A DNA stretch of 64,000 nt, taken from the NCBI GenBank assembly GCA_019454105.1, contig CP075364.1:2669362-2733361 (forward strand). Direction: 5' to 3'. Below are positions 29,965 to 38,930 of this stretch, one piece after another. The translations under genes and the position numbers were made by a program. The notes under the pieces were generated by a model, which saw nothing but the letters and a program-made list of their open reading frames with translations, made no database searches and was not told the DNA's origin. Origin of the DNA: Fimbriimonadaceae bacterium (GTDB taxonomy: Bacteria; Armatimonadota; Fimbriimonadia; Fimbriimonadales; Fimbriimonadaceae). Positions within the stretch are counted from its first letter, which is position 1. Every line of letters starts with the position of its first letter.

Positions 29965-32442
29965 ATGGCGGGGTCGGCAATGTCCACCCTTGATAGCCGG
30001 ATTTTGATCAAGTCTCTCGTCTTCTGCGCGCTCGTGGGGTTCTGGGGCGCCATGGCCGGAGGATGTGGCCGGGATGCGGGCCAGCCGCGCAAGGTCCTCA
30101 CCGTCTGGGGGACGACGCTGGGGCCGAACGACCAGGGCCAGATCGCCGTCGTTCGCGAGTTCGAGCGGAGAAACCCGGGGGTCAAGGTGCGGATGCTCGG
30201 GATGGGCAGCGGGGGAATGAACCCCCAGAAGCTCATGACCGCCATCGTCGGGGGGGCGCCGCCAGACGTGGTGTACCAAGATCGGTTCACCCTTTCTGAT
30301 TGGGCCGCCCGAGGGGCCTTCTTGCCCTTGGATCCGTTGATCGACCGTGACCGGGCCCGCGACCCCTTGACCCCGACCCCGGATCAGTATTACGAGGCCC
30401 CGTGGGCTGAGGCGACCTTCGAGGGTCGGCTGTACGGCATTCCGTGGATGTCCGACACGCGCATCCTCTACTGGAACCGGAACGTGTTCCGGGAAGGCGC
30501 CAAAGAGCTCAAGGCGGCCGGGCTCGACCCGGAGCGGCCTCCCCTGACTTGGAGCGAGACCCTTCGATACAGCCGGGCCCTCACCAAGTTCAACGCTGAC
30601 GGCAGCCTCAAGCAGGCCGGATTCATCCCGTTCTTCGGCAACACCTGGTTCACGCTCTTCGCCCTTCAGGCCGAAGCCGCGATGTTCTCTGCCGAGGGCA
30701 GGCAATGCGTGATGGACAATCCGGAGTCGGCAGAAGCGATGAGGTTCCTCGTCGACGCCTACAAGGTCCTTGGTGGAGTGGTCAACACTGAGCGGTTCCA
30801 GGCTTCGTTCCGAGGGGAGGAACGCAGCGCCTTCTTCGTGGGCCAGGTCGCCATGGTCGTCGATGGCGACTGGAACATGGGCGGCCTCGCCAAGTATGCC
30901 CAAGGTCTGGACTATGGAGTGGCCCCACCGCCTTCGCCCGATGACCGCGTCGCGAGGAAGGGCCGGTACGAGGGCCTCGACCACCGTTGGGTGACTTGGT
31001 GCGGTGGCTTCGCCTATTGCATTCCTCAAGGCGCCAAAGAGACCGACCTCGCCTGGGAGTTCATCAAGTTCACGACCAGTTTCGAGGGCCGCATGCTCGA
31101 GATCAGGGCCAAGGACGAGGCGAACCGGGCGAGGGGGGTGCCCAGCATCCCCAGGGTCACGGCCCATATCCAGACCAATAGGGAGTCTTTGATTGAGTTT
31201 CTGCCCAAGGACCCCTCCTTGGCCGCCGCCGCCACGCTCCATATGGAGGTCATGGAGTCGGCCAAAGTCAGGCCCGTCTCGGTGGCTGGGAAGAAGCTCT
31301 GGGACGAGCAGAACCGGGCGGCCGATCTTGTGATCCGTGGTCAAGCGAGCCCCGAATCAGCCTTGAACCAGGCTCAAAGCCAAGTGCAGACTGTTCTTGA
31401 CGAGCATTTCTACCGCCTGACCAGGCCAGTGGCCGACCTCCGGTCTGTCGTCGGCATCGGGCTAGCCGGGTTCCTGCTGGGAACTGGGCTGTTGCTCGGT
31501 GCCCAACGTGGCCGACCGAGAAGCCGGTTGGCCACCATCGAGTCTCGCTGGGGTTGGCTCTTTGTGGCCCCATGGGCCGTGGGTTTCGTCGCTCTCACGC
31601 TGGGCCCGATGGTCGCCTCGATCGTCCTCAGCTTCGCGATGTCGAACGGGCTCCAAGAAGCCCGCTGGGTCGGTTTCGAGAACTACGCCGAGCTGTTCGT
31701 CAGGGACGGCGGGGCCTTCGCCAAGTCGTTGGTGAACGTGCTTTACCTGACGGGGATTGGCGTCCCGTTCGGCCTGGTCACGAGCCTGTCGGTGGCGCTG
31801 CTGCTCAATGCCGGGGTGCGCGGAATTGGCTTCTTTCGCGCCATGTTCTATCTGCCCGCCATCGTTCCCGGCATCGCGAGCGTCGTTCTCTGGATCTGGA
31901 TTCTGAACCCGGATCCCAAGCTCGGGCTTCTCAATGGACTCTGGGCGCAGACCGTGGGTGACTGGTTCGCGGTTCCGGCGCCCGGATGGTTCGCGGCCGA
32001 GGAGTGGGCGAAACCTGCCCTCATCATGATGGGGCTATGGGGAGCAGGAAGCGGCGCGATCGTCTGGCTTGCCGGGCTCAAAGGCGTGCCGACCCAGCTT
32101 TATGAGGCGACGGCGATCGATGGGGCCAGGCCCTGGCGCCAGTTCGCGGCGGTGACGTTGCCACACTTGAGTCCGCTGGTCTTTTTCAACGTCGTGATCG
32201 GTTTCATCGGCACGCTCCAGACCTTTGAAGGGGTCTATGTCGTGACCAACGGCGTCGGGTCGGGCCCCAACGATTCGTTGCTCGTCCCCGTCTACCACCT
32301 CTTCATCAACGCGTTCTCTTACTTTCGGCTGGGCTACGCGAGCGCGCTGGCCTGGGTGCTTTTCCTGATCGTCATGGCGGTCACGGGGCTCCAGTTCTGG
32401 GCATCTCGAAGGTGGGTGCGCCAGGAGGCCGAGTTTGATTGA
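29965..32442 (+). CDS. Fused sugar-binding lipoprotein and MalF-type permease of an ABC transporter
   Basis: An 825-residue fusion of two proteins that are normally separate. The N-terminal part (about 1-480) is an extracellular solute-binding protein of the CUT1 family with a lipobox (WGAMAGGC, Cys34) and KVLTVWGTTLGPNDQ. EFIKFTTSFEGRML follows, as in maltose/sugar-binding proteins. A helix SVVGIGLAGFLLGTGLLLG (near 494) joins it to a permease from about residue 528 (WGWLFVAPWAVGFVALTLGPMVAS). The permease has six helices and the EAA loop YEATAIDGARPWRQF. The C-terminus matches MalF-type subunits. ATG 29980 is an alternative start. It overlaps the next permease gene. No ATPase is nearby, so a shared MalK-type subunit must be encoded elsewhere. 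Confidence 0.88.
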   Translation: MAGSAMSTLDSRILIKSLVFCALVGFWGAMAGGCGRDAGQPRKVLTVWGTTLGPNDQGQIAVVREFERRNPGVKVRMLGMGSGGMNPQKLMTAIVGGAPPDVVYQDRFTLSDWAARGAFLPLDPLIDRDRARDPLTPTPDQYYEAPWAEATFEGRLYGIPWMSDTRILYWNRNVFREGAKELKAAGLDPERPPLTWSETLRYSRALTKFNADGSLKQAGFIPFFGNTWFTLFALQAEAAMFSAEGRQCVMDNPESAEAMRFLVDAYKVLGGVVNTERFQASFRGEERSAFFVGQVAMVVDGDWNMGGLAKYAQGLDYGVAPPPSPDDRVARKGRYEGLDHRWVTWCGGFAYCIPQGAKETDLAWEFIKFTTSFEGRMLEIRAKDEANRARGVPSIPRVTAHIQTNRESLIEFLPKDPSLAAAATLHMEVMESAKVRPVSVAGKKLWDEQNRAADLVIRGQASPESALNQAQSQVQTVLDEHFYRLTRPVADLRSVVGIGLAGFLLGTGLLLGAQRGRPRSRLATIESRWGWLFVAPWAVGFVALTLGPMVASIVLSFAMSNGLQEARWVGFENYAELFVRDGGAFAKSLVNVLYLTGIGVPFGLVTSLSVALLLNAGVRGIGFFRAMFYLPAIVPGIASVVLWIWILNPDPKLGLLNGLWAQTVGDWFAVPAPGWFAAEEWAKPALIMMGLWGAGSGAIVWLAGLKGVPTQLYEATAIDGARPWRQFAAVTLPHLSPLVFFNVVIGFIGTLQTFEGVYVVTNGVGSGPNDSLLVPVYHLFINAFSYFRLGYASALAWVLFLIVMAVTGLQFWASRRWVRQEAEFD

Positions 32443-34153
32443 AGGCTGGGTCTTCGCTATCGGGGCGCTCTTGCACGTGGGAGCGTGGATCCTCTTCGCG
32501 TGGCTGTTGGTGGGACTGACAAGAAGGATCGCCCTGCGGGTGACGGGCCCAGCGCCGTTGTGGCCTTGGGGCGCGATGATCGCTTTAGGATTCTTGGCGG
32601 CCGCGTGGCCTCTGCCCTTGGGCAGGCAGGCCCCGGAAGGGCTATGGGTGCCTCTTGTCGTGCCGGTCATGCCCTTCCCGGCGTGGTTCTTCGTCGCAGC
32701 CTTCGTGGCCGTCATGGTGGTTGGAACGAGGTTGGCTCTCTCGGCCACGCGCGGCGACCGTGCCGAGCAGATTCGGTCAATGGTTCAGTGGGTGATCGTT
32801 GGCATGCTCTCGGCGGCATGGTTCGCTTGGCTCGGCGAGCCAGTGACGATCCTTCGGGGGGCCTTGCCGGTCTCGCCCGTTGGAGTTGCCGCCGTCTTCG
32901 GGTCGCTTGTTCTTGCGGTGGGCCTGATGGCAAGGGTCGAACGCCGACTGAATCAGCGCGGCCTCTCGGCCAGGGTGGCTGCGACAACCGCTCTCGTTGC
33001 CGGAACCTTGGTCTTTGCCCTTCCGCTTGCTTGGCTCGTCCTGACAAGCTTCAAAGAACACCAAGACAACACCAGCGCGCTCGGATTGGTGTGGGTCCCC
33101 CGAGTGACAAAGTCTCACGCCTTCGTCGACCCGGAGAGGCCTTTGGTCGAGGCCCGGTTCCGCGGGCAGAAGGTTCTGGCCAAGGTCGTCAGCGAGGTTC
33201 CCTACGGTCTTGCGCTCGAAGTCGAGCGGCCCTATGCTCTGCGCGGCTGGCGGTTTCAGGCCCCCAAGTCGGAAACCCGAGATGTGCCGCGTCAAGCTGA
33301 CGTCGTCACCTGGCCGACCAGCCATGGCCAGGCGACGGGCTTTGTACGGGAAAACCTGGTCGGTGGCGTCCAACGGGTCGAGGGGTTGAGCCCTGAGAGC
33401 CGCAAGGGCCAAATCTTCGAGCTGCCATCAGGCAAAGCGCAGCCAGTACGAGAGTTCGGGATCCGGTGGCAAAACTATCCGGAGGCCCTCGAGTGGCTGC
33501 CGCCCGAAGCCCAGGGGGGGCTCGCCTACCTCAGGAACACGCTCTGGCTCGTCACTTTGTCCGTTGTCGGAAACCTTCTGAGCTGCTCGCTTGTGGCCTA
33601 CGGGTTCGCCCGGTTGAAGTTCGTTGGACGGTCCCTCTTGTTCGGAGTCTTGGTCTCGACCCTCATGCTCCCGCCGGCTGTGACGATGTTGCCCCGGTTC
33701 ATGCTATGGCGCGACCTCGGATTTGTCGACACTCTCGTCCCTCTGTGGCTCCCAACCTTCTTCGCCAGCGCGTTCAACGTGTTCCTATTGCGCCAGTTCT
33801 TTGTCACGGTTCCGGTCGAAATGGAGCAGGCGGCGAAGATCGACGGATGCTCGCCGCTCCGAGTTTTCTGGCAGGTCAGTCTTCCCCAGATCAAACCGGC
33901 GCTGATGGTCGTTGGACTTTGGTCGTTCATGGGAGCCTGGAACGACTTCATGGGCCCGCTGATCTATGTGAGCAGCCCGGAGAAAATGCCGCTCACTTAC
34001 GGCCTCCAGCTTTTCTACAGCGACCGCGGAAGCGACTTCGGTCTCATGATGGCGTTCGCGACCCTGTCGATCATCCCCGTGTTCCTCGTCTTCCTCTTCG
34101 GGCAGCGCTACTTGACCGAGGGAGCCCATTTGACGGGCCTTGGCGGCAGATGA
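32435..34153 (+). CDS. MalG-type sugar permease with an enlarged N-terminus and insertion
   Basis: A 572-residue permease of the CUT1 type; relatives have about 280 residues. The first 180 residues add about five extra helices of unknown role. A conserved first helix follows (LVAGTLVFALPLAWLVLTSFKEH), then about 160 residues of non-membrane sequence (KVVSEVPYGLALEVERPY..., WQNYPEALEW) where normal MalG has a short loop. Last come the usual helices with LRNTLWLVTLSVV, AYGFARLKF and the EAA motif EMEQAAKIDGCSPLRVF. TTG 32435 has a strong AGGAGG seven bases upstream and overlaps the previous stop. The large loop could fold back on the fused binding protein. Confidence 0.85.
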   Translation: MIEGWVFAIGALLHVGAWILFAWLLVGLTRRIALRVTGPAPLWPWGAMIALGFLAAAWPLPLGRQAPEGLWVPLVVPVMPFPAWFFVAAFVAVMVVGTRLALSATRGDRAEQIRSMVQWVIVGMLSAAWFAWLGEPVTILRGALPVSPVGVAAVFGSLVLAVGLMARVERRLNQRGLSARVAATTALVAGTLVFALPLAWLVLTSFKEHQDNTSALGLVWVPRVTKSHAFVDPERPLVEARFRGQKVLAKVVSEVPYGLALEVERPYALRGWRFQAPKSETRDVPRQADVVTWPTSHGQATGFVRENLVGGVQRVEGLSPESRKGQIFELPSGKAQPVREFGIRWQNYPEALEWLPPEAQGGLAYLRNTLWLVTLSVVGNLLSCSLVAYGFARLKFVGRSLLFGVLVSTLMLPPAVTMLPRFMLWRDLGFVDTLVPLWLPTFFASAFNVFLLRQFFVTVPVEMEQAAKIDGCSPLRVFWQVSLPQIKPALMVVGLWSFMGAWNDFMGPLIYVSSPEKMPLTYGLQLFYSDRGSDFGLMMAFATLSIIPVFLVFLFGQRYLTEGAHLTGLGGR

Positions 34154-34222: not shown

Positions 34223-34867
34223 GTGAAGAATCGGCACGCGCCGTTTTTGAAGGCCAACTTGTCGGAACGTGAAGCGCTCATCGTCCAGATGGCCGCGTCG
34301 GGGTTGATCGATCGTGACATCTGCGATCAACTGAAAATCGCGCCGGGAACACTGAGCACTTACTGGTCCCGGATCCGGCACAAGTCCGGTCAGGCATCGC
34401 GCCCGGCGATCACTTCAAAGTTCGTCCGACACCAGTTCCACGAGGCGATCGATTCTCTCGTGGCCCACGTCGCCGAGACCCGCGCCCAATTCGAGCGCTC
34501 TGACCAGGCGCTTGAAGACCTGCACCAGGCCCTTGTCGAAGTCTTCGCCGGACTGCCGATCTTGGCGATGGTCGTCGGGCCCGAAGGCGACCTCGTGGCC
34601 GTCACCAGGCTCGTGGCCTCGAAGTGGGGCGAAACGTGGGCCCCAGGGGCCAGTCTTCATCAGCTCATGGAATCTGAGAACTCTCTGGCGATCATGCAGG
34701 CGATGCTGGGCCAAGACCAGCCTTCCGCGCCGATCAGGATCAGCCAAGGTTCCGGATGGTACGAACTGACCCTTCGGCCCTTGTCTGGTATCGAGCTGTG
34801 GATGGTCTTGGCGCGCTCGGCATGGCCTCCTGGCTTCGGGCCGAGCGCGCTGGTCGAGCTTGACTAG
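34223..34867 (+). CDS. Regulator with N-terminal LuxR-type HTH and C-terminal PAS-like domain (1)
   Basis: A 214-residue protein. Residues 12-60 form a LuxR/GerE-like helix-turn-helix (LSEREALIVQMAASGLIDRDICDQLKIAPGTLSTYWSRIRHKSG). LuxR domains are usually C-terminal, so the order is reversed. A helical linker and a PAS-like region follow (ILAMVVGPEGDLVAVTRLVASKWGE), so a small ligand or redox cue may be sensed. GTG 34223 has an AGGGGAG eight bases upstream. It lies just after the two-gene sugar transporter on the same strand and may regulate it. A paralogue is at 39684. Confidence 0.75.
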   Translation: MKNRHAPFLKANLSEREALIVQMAASGLIDRDICDQLKIAPGTLSTYWSRIRHKSGQASRPAITSKFVRHQFHEAIDSLVAHVAETRAQFERSDQALEDLHQALVEVFAGLPILAMVVGPEGDLVAVTRLVASKWGETWAPGASLHQLMESENSLAIMQAMLGQDQPSAPIRISQGSGWYELTLRPLSGIELWMVLARSAWPPGFGPSALVELD

Positions 34868-35394: not shown

Positions 35395-36309
35395 ATGGTC
35401 GTCACGACTTCCAACCTCTCCGTGCGCTATGGCGCCTTCACGGCTTTACAGGACGTCACTTGCCAGATTCCTGAAGGATGTATCGGGCTTCTTGGGCCGA
35501 ACGGGGCCGGCAAGACCACGCTGTTGAAGGTCCTCTTAGGATTCATCAAGCCCAGTTCCGGAACGGCCGCCGTCCTTGGCGTGACACTCGGGAGCGGCGA
35601 GCGGAAGATCCGACAGATGCTCGGCTACATGCCCGAGCAGGACTGCCACATACCCGGTCTGAGCGCCGTGCAGTTCGTCGCTTTCGCCGGCGAGTTGGCC
35701 GGGCTCCCCTCAGGTCAGGCGCTTCGGCGGTCCCACGAGGTCCTTGAATACTGTGGGCTCGGCGAGGCGCGCTACCGGTTGGTCGAGTCTTATTCGACCG
35801 GAATGAAGCAAAGGATCAAACTGGCCCAGGCGCTCGTCCATGGCCCCCGGCTCCTCCTTCTCGACGAGCCGACGAACGGGCTCGACCCCTTGGGAAGGGA
35901 AGAGATGTTGGAACTCGTTCGTTCAGTCTCTCACGAGAAAGGGGTGAGCGTCATCGTCTCGAGCCACTTGTTGCCCGACATCGAACGAACGTGCGACGAG
36001 GTGGTCGTGGTCTCAGGCGGCCGAATGCGGGCCCAAGGCCTGATCAGCGACCTCAAAAAGATCGCCGGACAGCCGGTCGATGTCGAGCTTCGTGAACCGG
36101 TCGAAGGTTTCTTGGCCGCCTGCTCGAGCCGGGGACTCCAATTGATGGGTCAAGAGCACGCCCGGTTCAGGTTCCAGGGCCTGGATCGACCGGACACCAC
36201 AAGTCGGGCCGTCTTGGAGTCGGCCAGGGCGAGCGGCGCCCAAGTCCGAAGGCTCGTCCCGGCCGAAAGGTCGCTGGAGGAAGCGATCTTGGAGGCGGTC
36301 AATGGCTGA
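35395..36309 (+). CDS. ABC transporter ATP-binding protein (exporter unit, first ATPase)
   Basis: A 304-residue ATPase with Walker A GPNGAGKTT (about residue 36) and Q-loop PEQDCHIP. The signature is YSTGMKQRIKLAQAL, a form common in ABC-2 exporters, and Walker B is LLLLDEPTNGLDPLG. The C-terminal 90 residues are an extra domain of unknown role. It overlaps the permease gene that follows by eight bases, the first of four tightly packed genes in this operon. Export of a lipid, peptide or drug is possible; no substrate is visible. Confidence 0.9.
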   Translation: MVVTTSNLSVRYGAFTALQDVTCQIPEGCIGLLGPNGAGKTTLLKVLLGFIKPSSGTAAVLGVTLGSGERKIRQMLGYMPEQDCHIPGLSAVQFVAFAGELAGLPSGQALRRSHEVLEYCGLGEARYRLVESYSTGMKQRIKLAQALVHGPRLLLLDEPTNGLDPLGREEMLELVRSVSHEKGVSVIVSSHLLPDIERTCDEVVVVSGGRMRAQGLISDLKKIAGQPVDVELREPVEGFLAACSSRGLQLMGQEHARFRFQGLDRPDTTSRAVLESARASGAQVRRLVPAERSLEEAILEAVNG

Positions 36310-37252
36310 TTCGGTTGGCGACCTGAGTTACCGTGGCTATTTCGGGAACACACTTTCCGAAAGGGGTCGATGGCTGGTCGTCGCCAAGCAAAGTTGGAAG
36401 ACGGCCTTCAAGAAGCGGGGATTCTGGGTGGCTTCATCTTTCGGAGCCTGGTACTTCATCGTTCTGGCCGCGATCCTCTACTTCGTCGAGCAGTCGGTCA
36501 CCATGGATCCGACCGGCAACGGGGCCGAGAGGTTCTACAGCCAAATGGTCTGGAAGGACCAGTTCTTGATCGGGTTTACCTTCGCCCAATTGATGTGCCT
36601 CGTCTTGGTCTTGATCGTTGGCGCGGGCTCGATCGCCAACGACAACCGGACGAACGCCCTGCTCGTCTACCTGAGCAAGCCTGTCTCCAAGCTCGACTAC
36701 CTCTTCGGCAAATGGATGGGCGTCCTTGTGCCTCTCGTTGTTGGGTTGGGCCTGCCCCTTGCCTTCTTTTACACCTACTGCCTCATGAACTTCAGGGAGC
36801 GCGGCTTCCTGGAACAAGACCCCTGGCTGGGCCCGAAGTTGATCGCCGTCGTCCTGTTCGCGGCCGCCTACCACTCGACCCTGATCTTGGGAGTTAGTTC
36901 CCTGTTCAACAGCGGCCGGGTCGCGGGAGGAGCCTACGCGGCGGTCACCTTTGTCACCGGGTTTTTCTCGCAACTGATGTTGGCCGTCTTTTTCCAGAGT
37001 CCCCCTGAGTCATCCAGGCCGGGAATCGTCTCTTCTGGGGCGCTGCATTACCTTTCAGTCGACGGCCTTGTGGTCGGGATGTCGAAGATCGTCTTAGGCA
37101 CTGACGGTGGCAACGCTTTCACGGTTGCTCGGGGATCCAGGCAAGTGCCGATCCCGCCCGCTTGGATGATCTTTGGTCTCATGGCCTTGGCGATCGCGCT
37201 GGCTTGGGCCGTGGCTTCTTGGCGGGTGAAGGCAGTCGAGGTCGTCAAGTGA
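36302..37252 (+). CDS. ABC-2 type transporter permease (first permease)
   Basis: A 316-residue protein with about six helices (FGAWYFIVLAAILYFV, LIGFTFAQLMCLVLVLIVGAGSI, WMGVLVPLVVGLGLPLAFFYTY, MIFGLMALAIALAWAVASWRV). The segment AGSIANDNRTNALLVYLSKPVSKLDYLFGKW is typical of ABC-2 permeases of the NatB/CcmB-like group. It overlaps the preceding ATPase and its TGA overlaps the next GTG, so the four genes are translationally coupled. Confidence 0.82.
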   Translation: MADSVGDLSYRGYFGNTLSERGRWLVVAKQSWKTAFKKRGFWVASSFGAWYFIVLAAILYFVEQSVTMDPTGNGAERFYSQMVWKDQFLIGFTFAQLMCLVLVLIVGAGSIANDNRTNALLVYLSKPVSKLDYLFGKWMGVLVPLVVGLGLPLAFFYTYCLMNFRERGFLEQDPWLGPKLIAVVLFAAAYHSTLILGVSSLFNSGRVAGGAYAAVTFVTGFFSQLMLAVFFQSPPESSRPGIVSSGALHYLSVDGLVVGMSKIVLGTDGGNAFTVARGSRQVPIPPAWMIFGLMALAIALAWAVASWRVKAVEVVK

Positions 37253-38163
37253 TCTCTCTGACAGGAGTGTCGCGCTGGTACGGCCAAGTGATCGGCCTCA
37301 ACGACGTCACCTGCGAGATCCAACCTGGCGTGACGGCCCTGCTCGGACAAAACGGGGCCGGGAAGACGACGCTCATGCGGCTTGTGACCGGCCAGTTGCG
37401 ACCGACGACCGGAGAAGTGAACGTGCTCGGGGTCGATCCGTTCGCCAATCCGGAGGTCTACCGGAGGATGGGATACTGCCCGGACAGCGACAGCTTTCCC
37501 GAGCATCTGAGCGGAAGGGAGTTTGTCGTCCGAATGGCGAGGCTTGCCGGGTTCGACGCATCGGGGGCGAGGGCCGAAGCCGAGAAGCGGCTCGTGCAGG
37601 TCGGCATGGCTGAACGGGCCGACCGCAAGCTCAAAGGCTACAGCAAGGGCATGAGACAGCGGATCAAGCTCGCGCAAGCCATGGTCCATGATCCCGACAT
37701 CATCCTTTTGGACGAGCCGCTCAATGGACTCGACCCGGTGGGGCGGCGCCACTTCATGGACGTCTTGCGCGCCCTGGCGGCAGAAGGGAAGACCATCATC
37801 GTCAGTTCTCACGTCCTCTTCGAAGTCGAACAAATGACCCGTTCGATCGTCTTGCTCCACCACGGCAGGCTGCTCGCCTCGGGCGACGTGAGCCAGATCC
37901 GGGCCCTCATCGACCGCCATCCGCACCGCGTGCGGATCGAGGCCACCCGTCCCATGGACCTTGCCGCATGGCTCGTGTCGACCGGTGTCGTCAGCGGGGC
38001 CCAAGTACTCGGTGAGGACCGGCTCGAAGTTCAAACCCGAAACACCGATCAGTTCTACTCGGCGCTTCCGAGCGCGGAGAGCGAGTGCGGTTCTTCGATC
38101 ATCGGCTTCGACAGTCCTGACAACTCGATGGAAGCGGTCTACCAATATCTGGTCGCACGATGA
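37249..38163 (+). CDS. ABC transporter ATP-binding protein (second ATPase)
   Basis: A 304-residue ATPase related to the first one, with Walker A GQNGAGKTT, YSKGMRQRIKLAQAM and Walker B IILLDEPLNGLDPVG. GTG 37249 overlaps the previous TGA (GTGA); the longer frame from 37162 runs inside the permease. The C-terminal extension (RALIDRHPHRVRIEATRP...) resembles that of the first ATPase. Confidence 0.9.
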   Translation: MISLTGVSRWYGQVIGLNDVTCEIQPGVTALLGQNGAGKTTLMRLVTGQLRPTTGEVNVLGVDPFANPEVYRRMGYCPDSDSFPEHLSGREFVVRMARLAGFDASGARAEAEKRLVQVGMAERADRKLKGYSKGMRQRIKLAQAMVHDPDIILLDEPLNGLDPVGRRHFMDVLRALAAEGKTIIVSSHVLFEVEQMTRSIVLLHHGRLLASGDVSQIRALIDRHPHRVRIEATRPMDLAAWLVSTGVVSGAQVLGEDRLEVQTRNTDQFYSALPSAESECGSSIIGFDSPDNSMEAVYQYLVAR

Positions 38164-38930
38164 CGGGCTACATTTTCATTACGAGTCTTCGCGAGTTCCT
38201 GAGGCCGACTCGAGTGGCAGCGTGGCTCGCCATGGTCGTCGGGGTGTTCTTGATCGGGCTCGCTTGGCGGTTTCTTGCGACAGACCTCTCCTCGGATCAG
38301 TCCTTTGCTCATCTCTTCCTCGGGATCGTGCTCCGCGTCACGGCTTTGGCAAGCGCGGTGGTCTCGGCCCTTGTGGTGAGCCAAGAGGTCGAAAGCAAGA
38401 CCATCACTTATTGGATCTTGCGGCCTGTCCCTCGTTGGCAGGTCATGCTTGGACGGCTGTTTGCCGCCGGGGTCGCCTCCCTCGCGATTGTCTTGATGGC
38501 GAACCTGGCCTGCCTTGTCGCCGTGTTCGGGCCGGTCGACGCGATCAAGCAGTTCATGGTCGCCGATCTTTCCTTGCTGGCCCTCGCCGTCGGCTCCTAC
38601 ACAGGCTTGTTCGTGCTTTGCAGCCTGTTCTTCAGCAAGGCACTGATCGTCAGCCTCGTGTTCGCGTTCGGTTGGGAGACTTTCGTCCCGAACATGGCCG
38701 GAGACGCGTTCTATCTTTCGATCCTCTCTTACCTGCGGGGCGCGACCAGTCGAACTCTCGCGTCGAACGACGCTGGCTTTCTGGAGATCCTCACAGGGGC
38801 GCTGACTCCTCGATCAGTCGAGCCAGGGGTCTCTTGGCTGGTCTTGGCTCTGTTGACGGCCGTCACGTGGGCCGCCTGCCTCTACTTCTTCTCGCGCCGA
38901 GAGTTCATGCCCAAAGAAGAAGGCGATTAA
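38160..38930 (+). CDS. ABC-2 type transporter permease (second permease)
   Basis: A 256-residue protein with six helices (VAAWLAMVVGVFLIGLAWRF, LFLGIVLRVTALASAVVSALVV, LAVGSYTGLFVLCSLFF, LVLALLTAVTWAACLYFFSR) and VVSQEVESKTITYWILRPVPRWQVMLGRL, typical of ABC-2 permeases. It overlaps the previous gene by four bases and the convergent DinB gene by four bases. It closes the two-ATPase, two-permease unit. Confidence 0.82.
   Translation: MTGYIFITSLREFLRPTRVAAWLAMVVGVFLIGLAWRFLATDLSSDQSFAHLFLGIVLRVTALASAVVSALVVSQEVESKTITYWILRPVPRWQVMLGRLFAAGVASLAIVLMANLACLVAVFGPVDAIKQFMVADLSLLALAVGSYTGLFVLCSLFFSKALIVSLVFAFGWETFVPNMAGDAFYLSILSYLRGATSRTLASNDAGFLEILTGALTPRSVEPGVSWLVLALLTAVTWAACLYFFSRREFMPKEEGD

Follow-up and report, generated by a model that had tools for sequence, protein, structure and literature searches.

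The window, the whole stretch of 64,000 nucleotides that was analysed, belongs to a genome of 2.74 Mb on a single contig, and it carries on the forward strand a gene for a solute-binding protein (SBP) fused to a MalF-type permease, whose end is overlapped by a gene for a MalG-type permease. The features of the fusion gene were as follows.

29965..32442, + strand, SBP-MalF fusion gene (825 aa, ATG start, TGA stop; one frame also in relatives)
29965..30066, + strand, signal peptide and lipobox MAGGC with Cys34 (from the sequence; helix 12-32 in the model)
30091..31410, + strand, CUT1-type solute-binding domain, residues 43-482 (PF01547, E=2e-32; best Foldseek hit 4r9f, E=3e-23)
31438..31509, + strand, TM0, an extra helix, residues 492-515 (helix in the AlphaFold model; basic residues after it)
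31525..32439, + strand, MalF permease core, residues 521-825 (PF00528; UgpA/MalF models)
32101..32175, + strand, MalF EAA motif for ATPase coupling, residues 713-737 (alignment of 62 relatives)
32423..32428, + strand, AGGAGG within the end of the fusion gene, the probable ribosome-binding site of malG (from the sequence)

The original prediction that the binding protein and the MalF-type permease form one polypeptide was confirmed by the open frames, the coordinates, and the domains. In the Pfam analysis, SBP_bac_1 (residues 62-372) and BPD_transp_1 (residues 603-816) lay in a single 825-residue frame, and PF01547 (SBP_bac_1) scored 113.7 bits (cut-off, 26). The two BPD_transp_1 permeases of the unit, one MalF-like and the other MalG-like, both had the EAA loops of CUT1 importers, and E714, A715, A716, D719, and G720 of the MalF EAA motif were invariant or nearly so in the alignment of 62 relatives. 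The AlphaFold model of the fusion protein (pLDDT 90.7, pTM 0.87) gave the order binding domain, linker, helix 492-515, and MalF core. The TM0 region was hydrophobic in the displayed relatives of the fusion, and the BLAST match to an unfused MalF from Chloroflexota (L072) started only at residue 518 of the fusion query. The chain of a plain MalF begins in the cytoplasm, and a receptor fused ahead of it on the outer side therefore needs an additional membrane crossing; TM0 would provide it, returning the chain to the cytoplasmic side ahead of the MalF core. The predicted lipobox, MAGGC with Cys34, was present in the window protein, and a similar motif was found in just 13 of the 62 relatives. 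Because the lipobox is not conserved across the family, tethering of the receptor has to depend on the fusion itself.

The MalG-type permease had the following features.

32435..34153, + strand, MalG-type permease gene (572 aa, TTG start; 8-base overlap with the fusion gene)
32435..32962, + strand, N-terminal extension of five helices and two strands (AlphaFold; no Pfam family in the 31 relatives scanned)
33104..33289, + strand, beta module 1, residues 224-285 (hhalign, 98.2% to module 2; strands in the model)
33290..33457, + strand, beta module 2, residues 286-341 (hhalign and model; aligns with the single module of one-module relatives)
33473..34150, + strand, MalG permease core, residues 347-572 (Pfam, permease models, and Foldseek)
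33815-33889, + strand, MalG EAA motif, residues 461-485 (alignment of relatives)

BPD_transp_1 was located by Pfam at residues 391-560 of the 572 residues of MalG, and the EAA residues were again invariant or nearly so. The AlphaFold model (mean pLDDT 92.8, pTM 0.75) consisted of the core, N-terminal helices and strands, and an all-beta insertion. The prediction of about 180 extra N-terminal residues with several helices agreed with our result, in which approximately 176 residues with five predicted helices preceded the first core helix. The predicted insertion of roughly 160 residues was real as well, but its net size was smaller: the stretch from 'SFK' to 'RNT' measured 161 residues versus 36-46 in insertion-free MalGs, which corresponds to a net insertion of about 120 residues. 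It separated core helix 1 from the 'NY' helix. When the halves of the larger insertion were compared as profiles in a single comparison, they matched with 98.2% probability (E=5.9e-14), and the larger insertion consists of two tandem copies of one beta module of approximately 55 residues. Both additions varied stepwise across the loci: the part from the N-terminus through core helix 1 spanned about 40, 120, or 210 residues, and the interval from there to the next helix 36-46, about 107, or about 162 residues. Among 78 fused pairs, MalG had two modules in 46, one in 25, and none in six (L062, L063, L065, L069, L087, and L114), and the remaining one (L093) was divergent and poorly aligned. The MalG of L063 was nearly plain, with 285 residues. 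The MalG of L107, which is not adjacent to a fusion and hence lies outside the 78 pairs, was read as module-free in one alignment; it was probably misaligned, because its total length equals that of its one-module neighbours. The module sequences were variable (mean column identity, 37%). No Pfam family and no match among PDB sequences was found for the insertion profile, and profile searches with the insertion and the extension gave nothing credible (Sac7d at E=0.21). The helix bundle and the tandem beta modules would appear to be lineage-specific accretions.

To determine how widely the fusion is distributed, 291 genomes of Armatimonadota were searched. Among the matches listed, 150 spanned both halves of the fusion and came from 138 distinct genomes, and in 137 of these genomes the match ran across both halves without a stop codon; a stop inside the match, which would have spoken against one polypeptide, was present in only one (G217). 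Reading of the retrieved loci from stop to stop confirmed single frames. With the two halves in a single match in 138 genomes, and no stop in 137 of these, an assembly artefact or a missed stop was ruled out. The named relatives belonged to Fimbriimonadaceae and other Armatimonadota; one named Fimbriimonadaceae locus (L059) equalled a locus of G153, a genome from the family of the window, in all lengths and scores measured, and on this basis the window genome is assigned to Fimbriimonadaceae. Many residues were invariant in both halves of the fusion among 62 diverse relatives. The two-gene unit was also widespread: a malG gene followed directly downstream on the same strand for 78 of 99 distinct fused proteins, mostly overlapping or less than 100 bases away. 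For the remaining fused proteins, some contigs ended, and in some cases MalG was found approximately 1.3-1.6 kb further on. An in-frame TAG interrupted one fused gene (L078, G217:C1:2180721-2183108), which may reflect a sequencing error, decay, or a real split.

In the tree of MalF domains, the 96 fused rows formed one fully supported group amid unfused rows from Chloroflexota and Armatimonadota. The unfused relatives from Chloroflexota (L072 and others) had the same order of SBP, MalF, and MalG, with MalF 42% and MalG 39% identical; they differed in that the genes were separate, and the MalG of L072 was plain. Candidate fusions in Chloroflexota with open-frame lengths of 780-900 aa proved, once the frames were read, to be separate neighbouring genes with stops between them. 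Among 201 sampled Chloroflexota genomes, no stop-free match was found at E<=1e-90, every match holding a stop. In a Caldilineaceae genome (Chloroflexota) with 71 matches to the query, the SBP gene of three loci (L072, L161, and L162) was followed in frame by a separate MalF gene after a gap of about 8-23 codons; judging from this layout, fusion through loss of the stop would be easy.

The window genome contained a paralogous fusion/MalG pair at 380690-384739, which was 54% and 45% identical to the window pair. It also contained a second SBP-MalF fusion (L011 4161-6683; G000:C1 from 2228160), which had 840 residues and shared 26% identity with the first. An orphan MalG (L012 4627-6261; G000:C1 from 2606626), whose large insertion is of another kind, was encoded 376 kb from L011. 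The L011 fusion fell outside the 96-row fused group, and the MalF tree needed two state changes. This suggested that the L011 fusion likely arose independently, although its long branch tempers this reading and independence is not proven. In 61 genomes, the L011 and L012 genes were present together in 44, both absent in 11, and one alone in 6 (Fisher p=2e-7, with shared ancestry ignored), and on this co-occurrence the two proteins are probably partners.

The window genome had only one ATPase above the UgpC cut-off (438 bits; next best, 175). This sole MalK/UgpC-type ATPase, which had ABC and OB_MalK domains, was encoded by an orphan gene (G000:C1:949516-950637; L152 5505-6671) far from every CUT1 locus; it was found by NF008653 and PF17912, whereas the PF08402 probe for MalK gave no match in the window genome. 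In 85 family genomes, OB_MalK matched exactly once in 80 (one of these matches was below the curated cut-off), twice in two, and not at all in three, the last being genomes of 74-78% completeness. Since the window genome encodes at least four CUT1 systems, namely the window pair, the paralogous pair of L009, L011/L012, and a conventional SBP-MalF-MalG set (L015), the single MalK-type ATPase presumably serves several of them, as judged from the absence of another. ATPases serving several importers are established in Bacillus, for example, MsmX (PMC7658222), and the likeness to such multitask ATPases lies in one CUT1 ATPase for several importers, with the sharing here presumed from gene content. 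The prediction that no ATPase is encoded nearby held for the MalK type, but two ABC ATPases of another type, not CUT1, were located 1.2-3 kb downstream of the window unit beside ABC-2 membrane proteins (35395-38930).

The type I sugar importers of Gram-negative bacteria mostly work with a free receptor. Compared with E. coli MalEFGK2, the window unit shares the MalF and MalG cores, the EAA loops, a MalK-type ATPase, and an extra periplasmic domain at an equivalent site of one permease (P2 of MalF in E. coli). In E. coli, however, MalE is free, the extra domain is on MalF and has another sequence, and MalG is plain. The binding domains of OpuA and GlnPQ of Lactococcus lactis are likewise covalently linked to the membrane domain, but these proteins belong to other importer families and have two or more binding domains per transporter. 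A receptor and a channel in one polypeptide are not new in kind, because MalE-MalF of Bdellovibrio bacteriovorus, a maltose/maltodextrin transporter whose binding domain was solved (PDB 6FFL), has already been characterised (Licht et al. 2019); the fusion is stated to be transport-competent in a review (PMC7756565) that cites that study. Judging from the title of the study and from this review, it too has a CUT1 binding domain fused to MalF and one binding domain per transporter. When the comparison was limited to the binding domain, 6FFL showed weak sequence similarity to that of the window protein (phmmer E=6e-6). The Armatimonadota family differs from the Bdellovibrio fusion in being phylum-wide and in having an extended MalG. 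The novelty lies in the use of the fusion throughout the phylum, in a MalG whose beta module varies in steps and is duplicated and whose N-terminal helix bundle is variable, and in the consistent presence of one MalK ATPase per genome; a literature search of partial coverage found no paper on receptor-channel fusions of Armatimonadota.

These results suggested that the window unit is very probably a CUT1 oligosaccharide importer with a single, covalently linked receptor, driven by a shared MalK-type ATPase encoded elsewhere. Covalent tethering, as originally predicted, was backed by the sequence, by conservation throughout the phylum, and by the added helix between the receptor and the MalF core. 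The binding domain would be secreted and held to the MalF half by the short linker and TM0, and the tethered receptor would deliver the oligosaccharide to the MalF-MalG pore without a diffusional search. Transport would be driven, via the EAA loops kept in both permease halves, by the single MalK-type ATPase that is presumably common to the other CUT1 importers of the genome. The MalG additions on the outer side may make contact with the receptor, like the P2 loop in E. coli MalF.

A stronger form of this explanation, not its opposite, is that the MalG additions evolved for the tethered receptor and that the beta modules position the binding domain above the pore in the manner of P2, which we regard as a tentative and somewhat doubtful possibility. 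From the aligned ranges, the MalG insertion would occupy the site of the P2 loop in E. coli MalF, on the opposite subunit, and the MalF half of the fusion has no such insertion. In addition, the second, probably independent fusion seems to have a partner MalG whose own large insertion, of a different kind, lies near the corresponding position. Foldseek aligned MalG loosely with E. coli MalF chains as well. In the search of PDB sequences, the profile of the insertion matched no MalF chain with an E-value of 1 or lower. Against a dedicated docking platform, six fused pairs had a module-free MalG, and the MalG beside one unfused MalF (L067, L078) had a 109-residue insertion that aligned to the one-module form. 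No SBP gene was seen among the genes neighbouring this MalF, and in a quick tree of MalG cores L067/L078 fell outside the fused family. The fusion can thus occur without the module and the module without the fusion, and the expansion of MalG goes with the fusion only loosely. When the binding domain and the MalG insertion were analysed for co-variation in 78 pairs (effective number, 55), the MalF-core/MalG-core control was not enriched in the top 300 pairs, and the apparent enrichment for module 1 was confounded by lineage.

The MalG modules and helices might instead contact the cell wall, an outer-membrane porin, the surface layer, or a regulatory partner. The modules match no Pfam family or PDB sequence, vary much in sequence, and track lineage and not fusion, all of which are consistent with such a role, but positive evidence for a partner of this kind is absent, and we consider it rather unlikely. 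It is also unlikely that MalG of Armatimonadota built a new receptor cradle, in which the tandem copies of the beta module, one not described before, and the added membrane bundle would keep hold of the tethered receptor during the whole transport cycle. If this were true, a P2-like function would have arisen on the opposite permease subunit via duplication. Judging by the titles of two papers cited in PMC8134467, Grote 2009 and Jacso 2012, the P2 loop would inform the ATPase that substrate is available. Finally, a fusion that does not function as a single chain, either because a protease frees the receptor or because the gene is a decayed remnant, would fit the TAG inside the match of one relative (G217), but is very improbable in view of the invariant residues in both halves and the 137 genomes without a stop.

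With the window unit read as a tethered importer, Armatimonadota would be a phylum in which many sugar importers each use one attached receptor, several of these importers depend on the same single ATPase, and MalG is modular. The natural series of zero, one, or two modules and of no, some, or many extra helices lends itself to studying the costs and benefits of receptor tethering and the function of additional outer domains on permeases.

The best solved structures found by Foldseek for the binding domain had manno-oligosaccharides, maltotriose, sucrose, or beta-1,2-glucan oligosaccharides as ligands, with 17-24% identity. The nearest of these, binding proteins for manno- and gluco-oligosaccharides with up to 24% identity, are too distant in sequence to name the substrate. 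A GerE (LuxR-type) regulator was encoded downstream of the window unit (34223-34867), and LuxR-type regulators were also nearby in L051, L052, L070, L093, and L117. Alpha-amylase or LacI-type neighbours were not found around the loci of the window clade. The paralogous fusion clade (L009 4688-8845 and its relatives L116, L118, L120, L128, L129, and L134) was located near alpha-amylase genes in seven loci, and LacI-type regulators were nearby in several. These neighbours indicated alpha-glucans, and the paralogous clade is probably responsible for alpha-glucan uptake.
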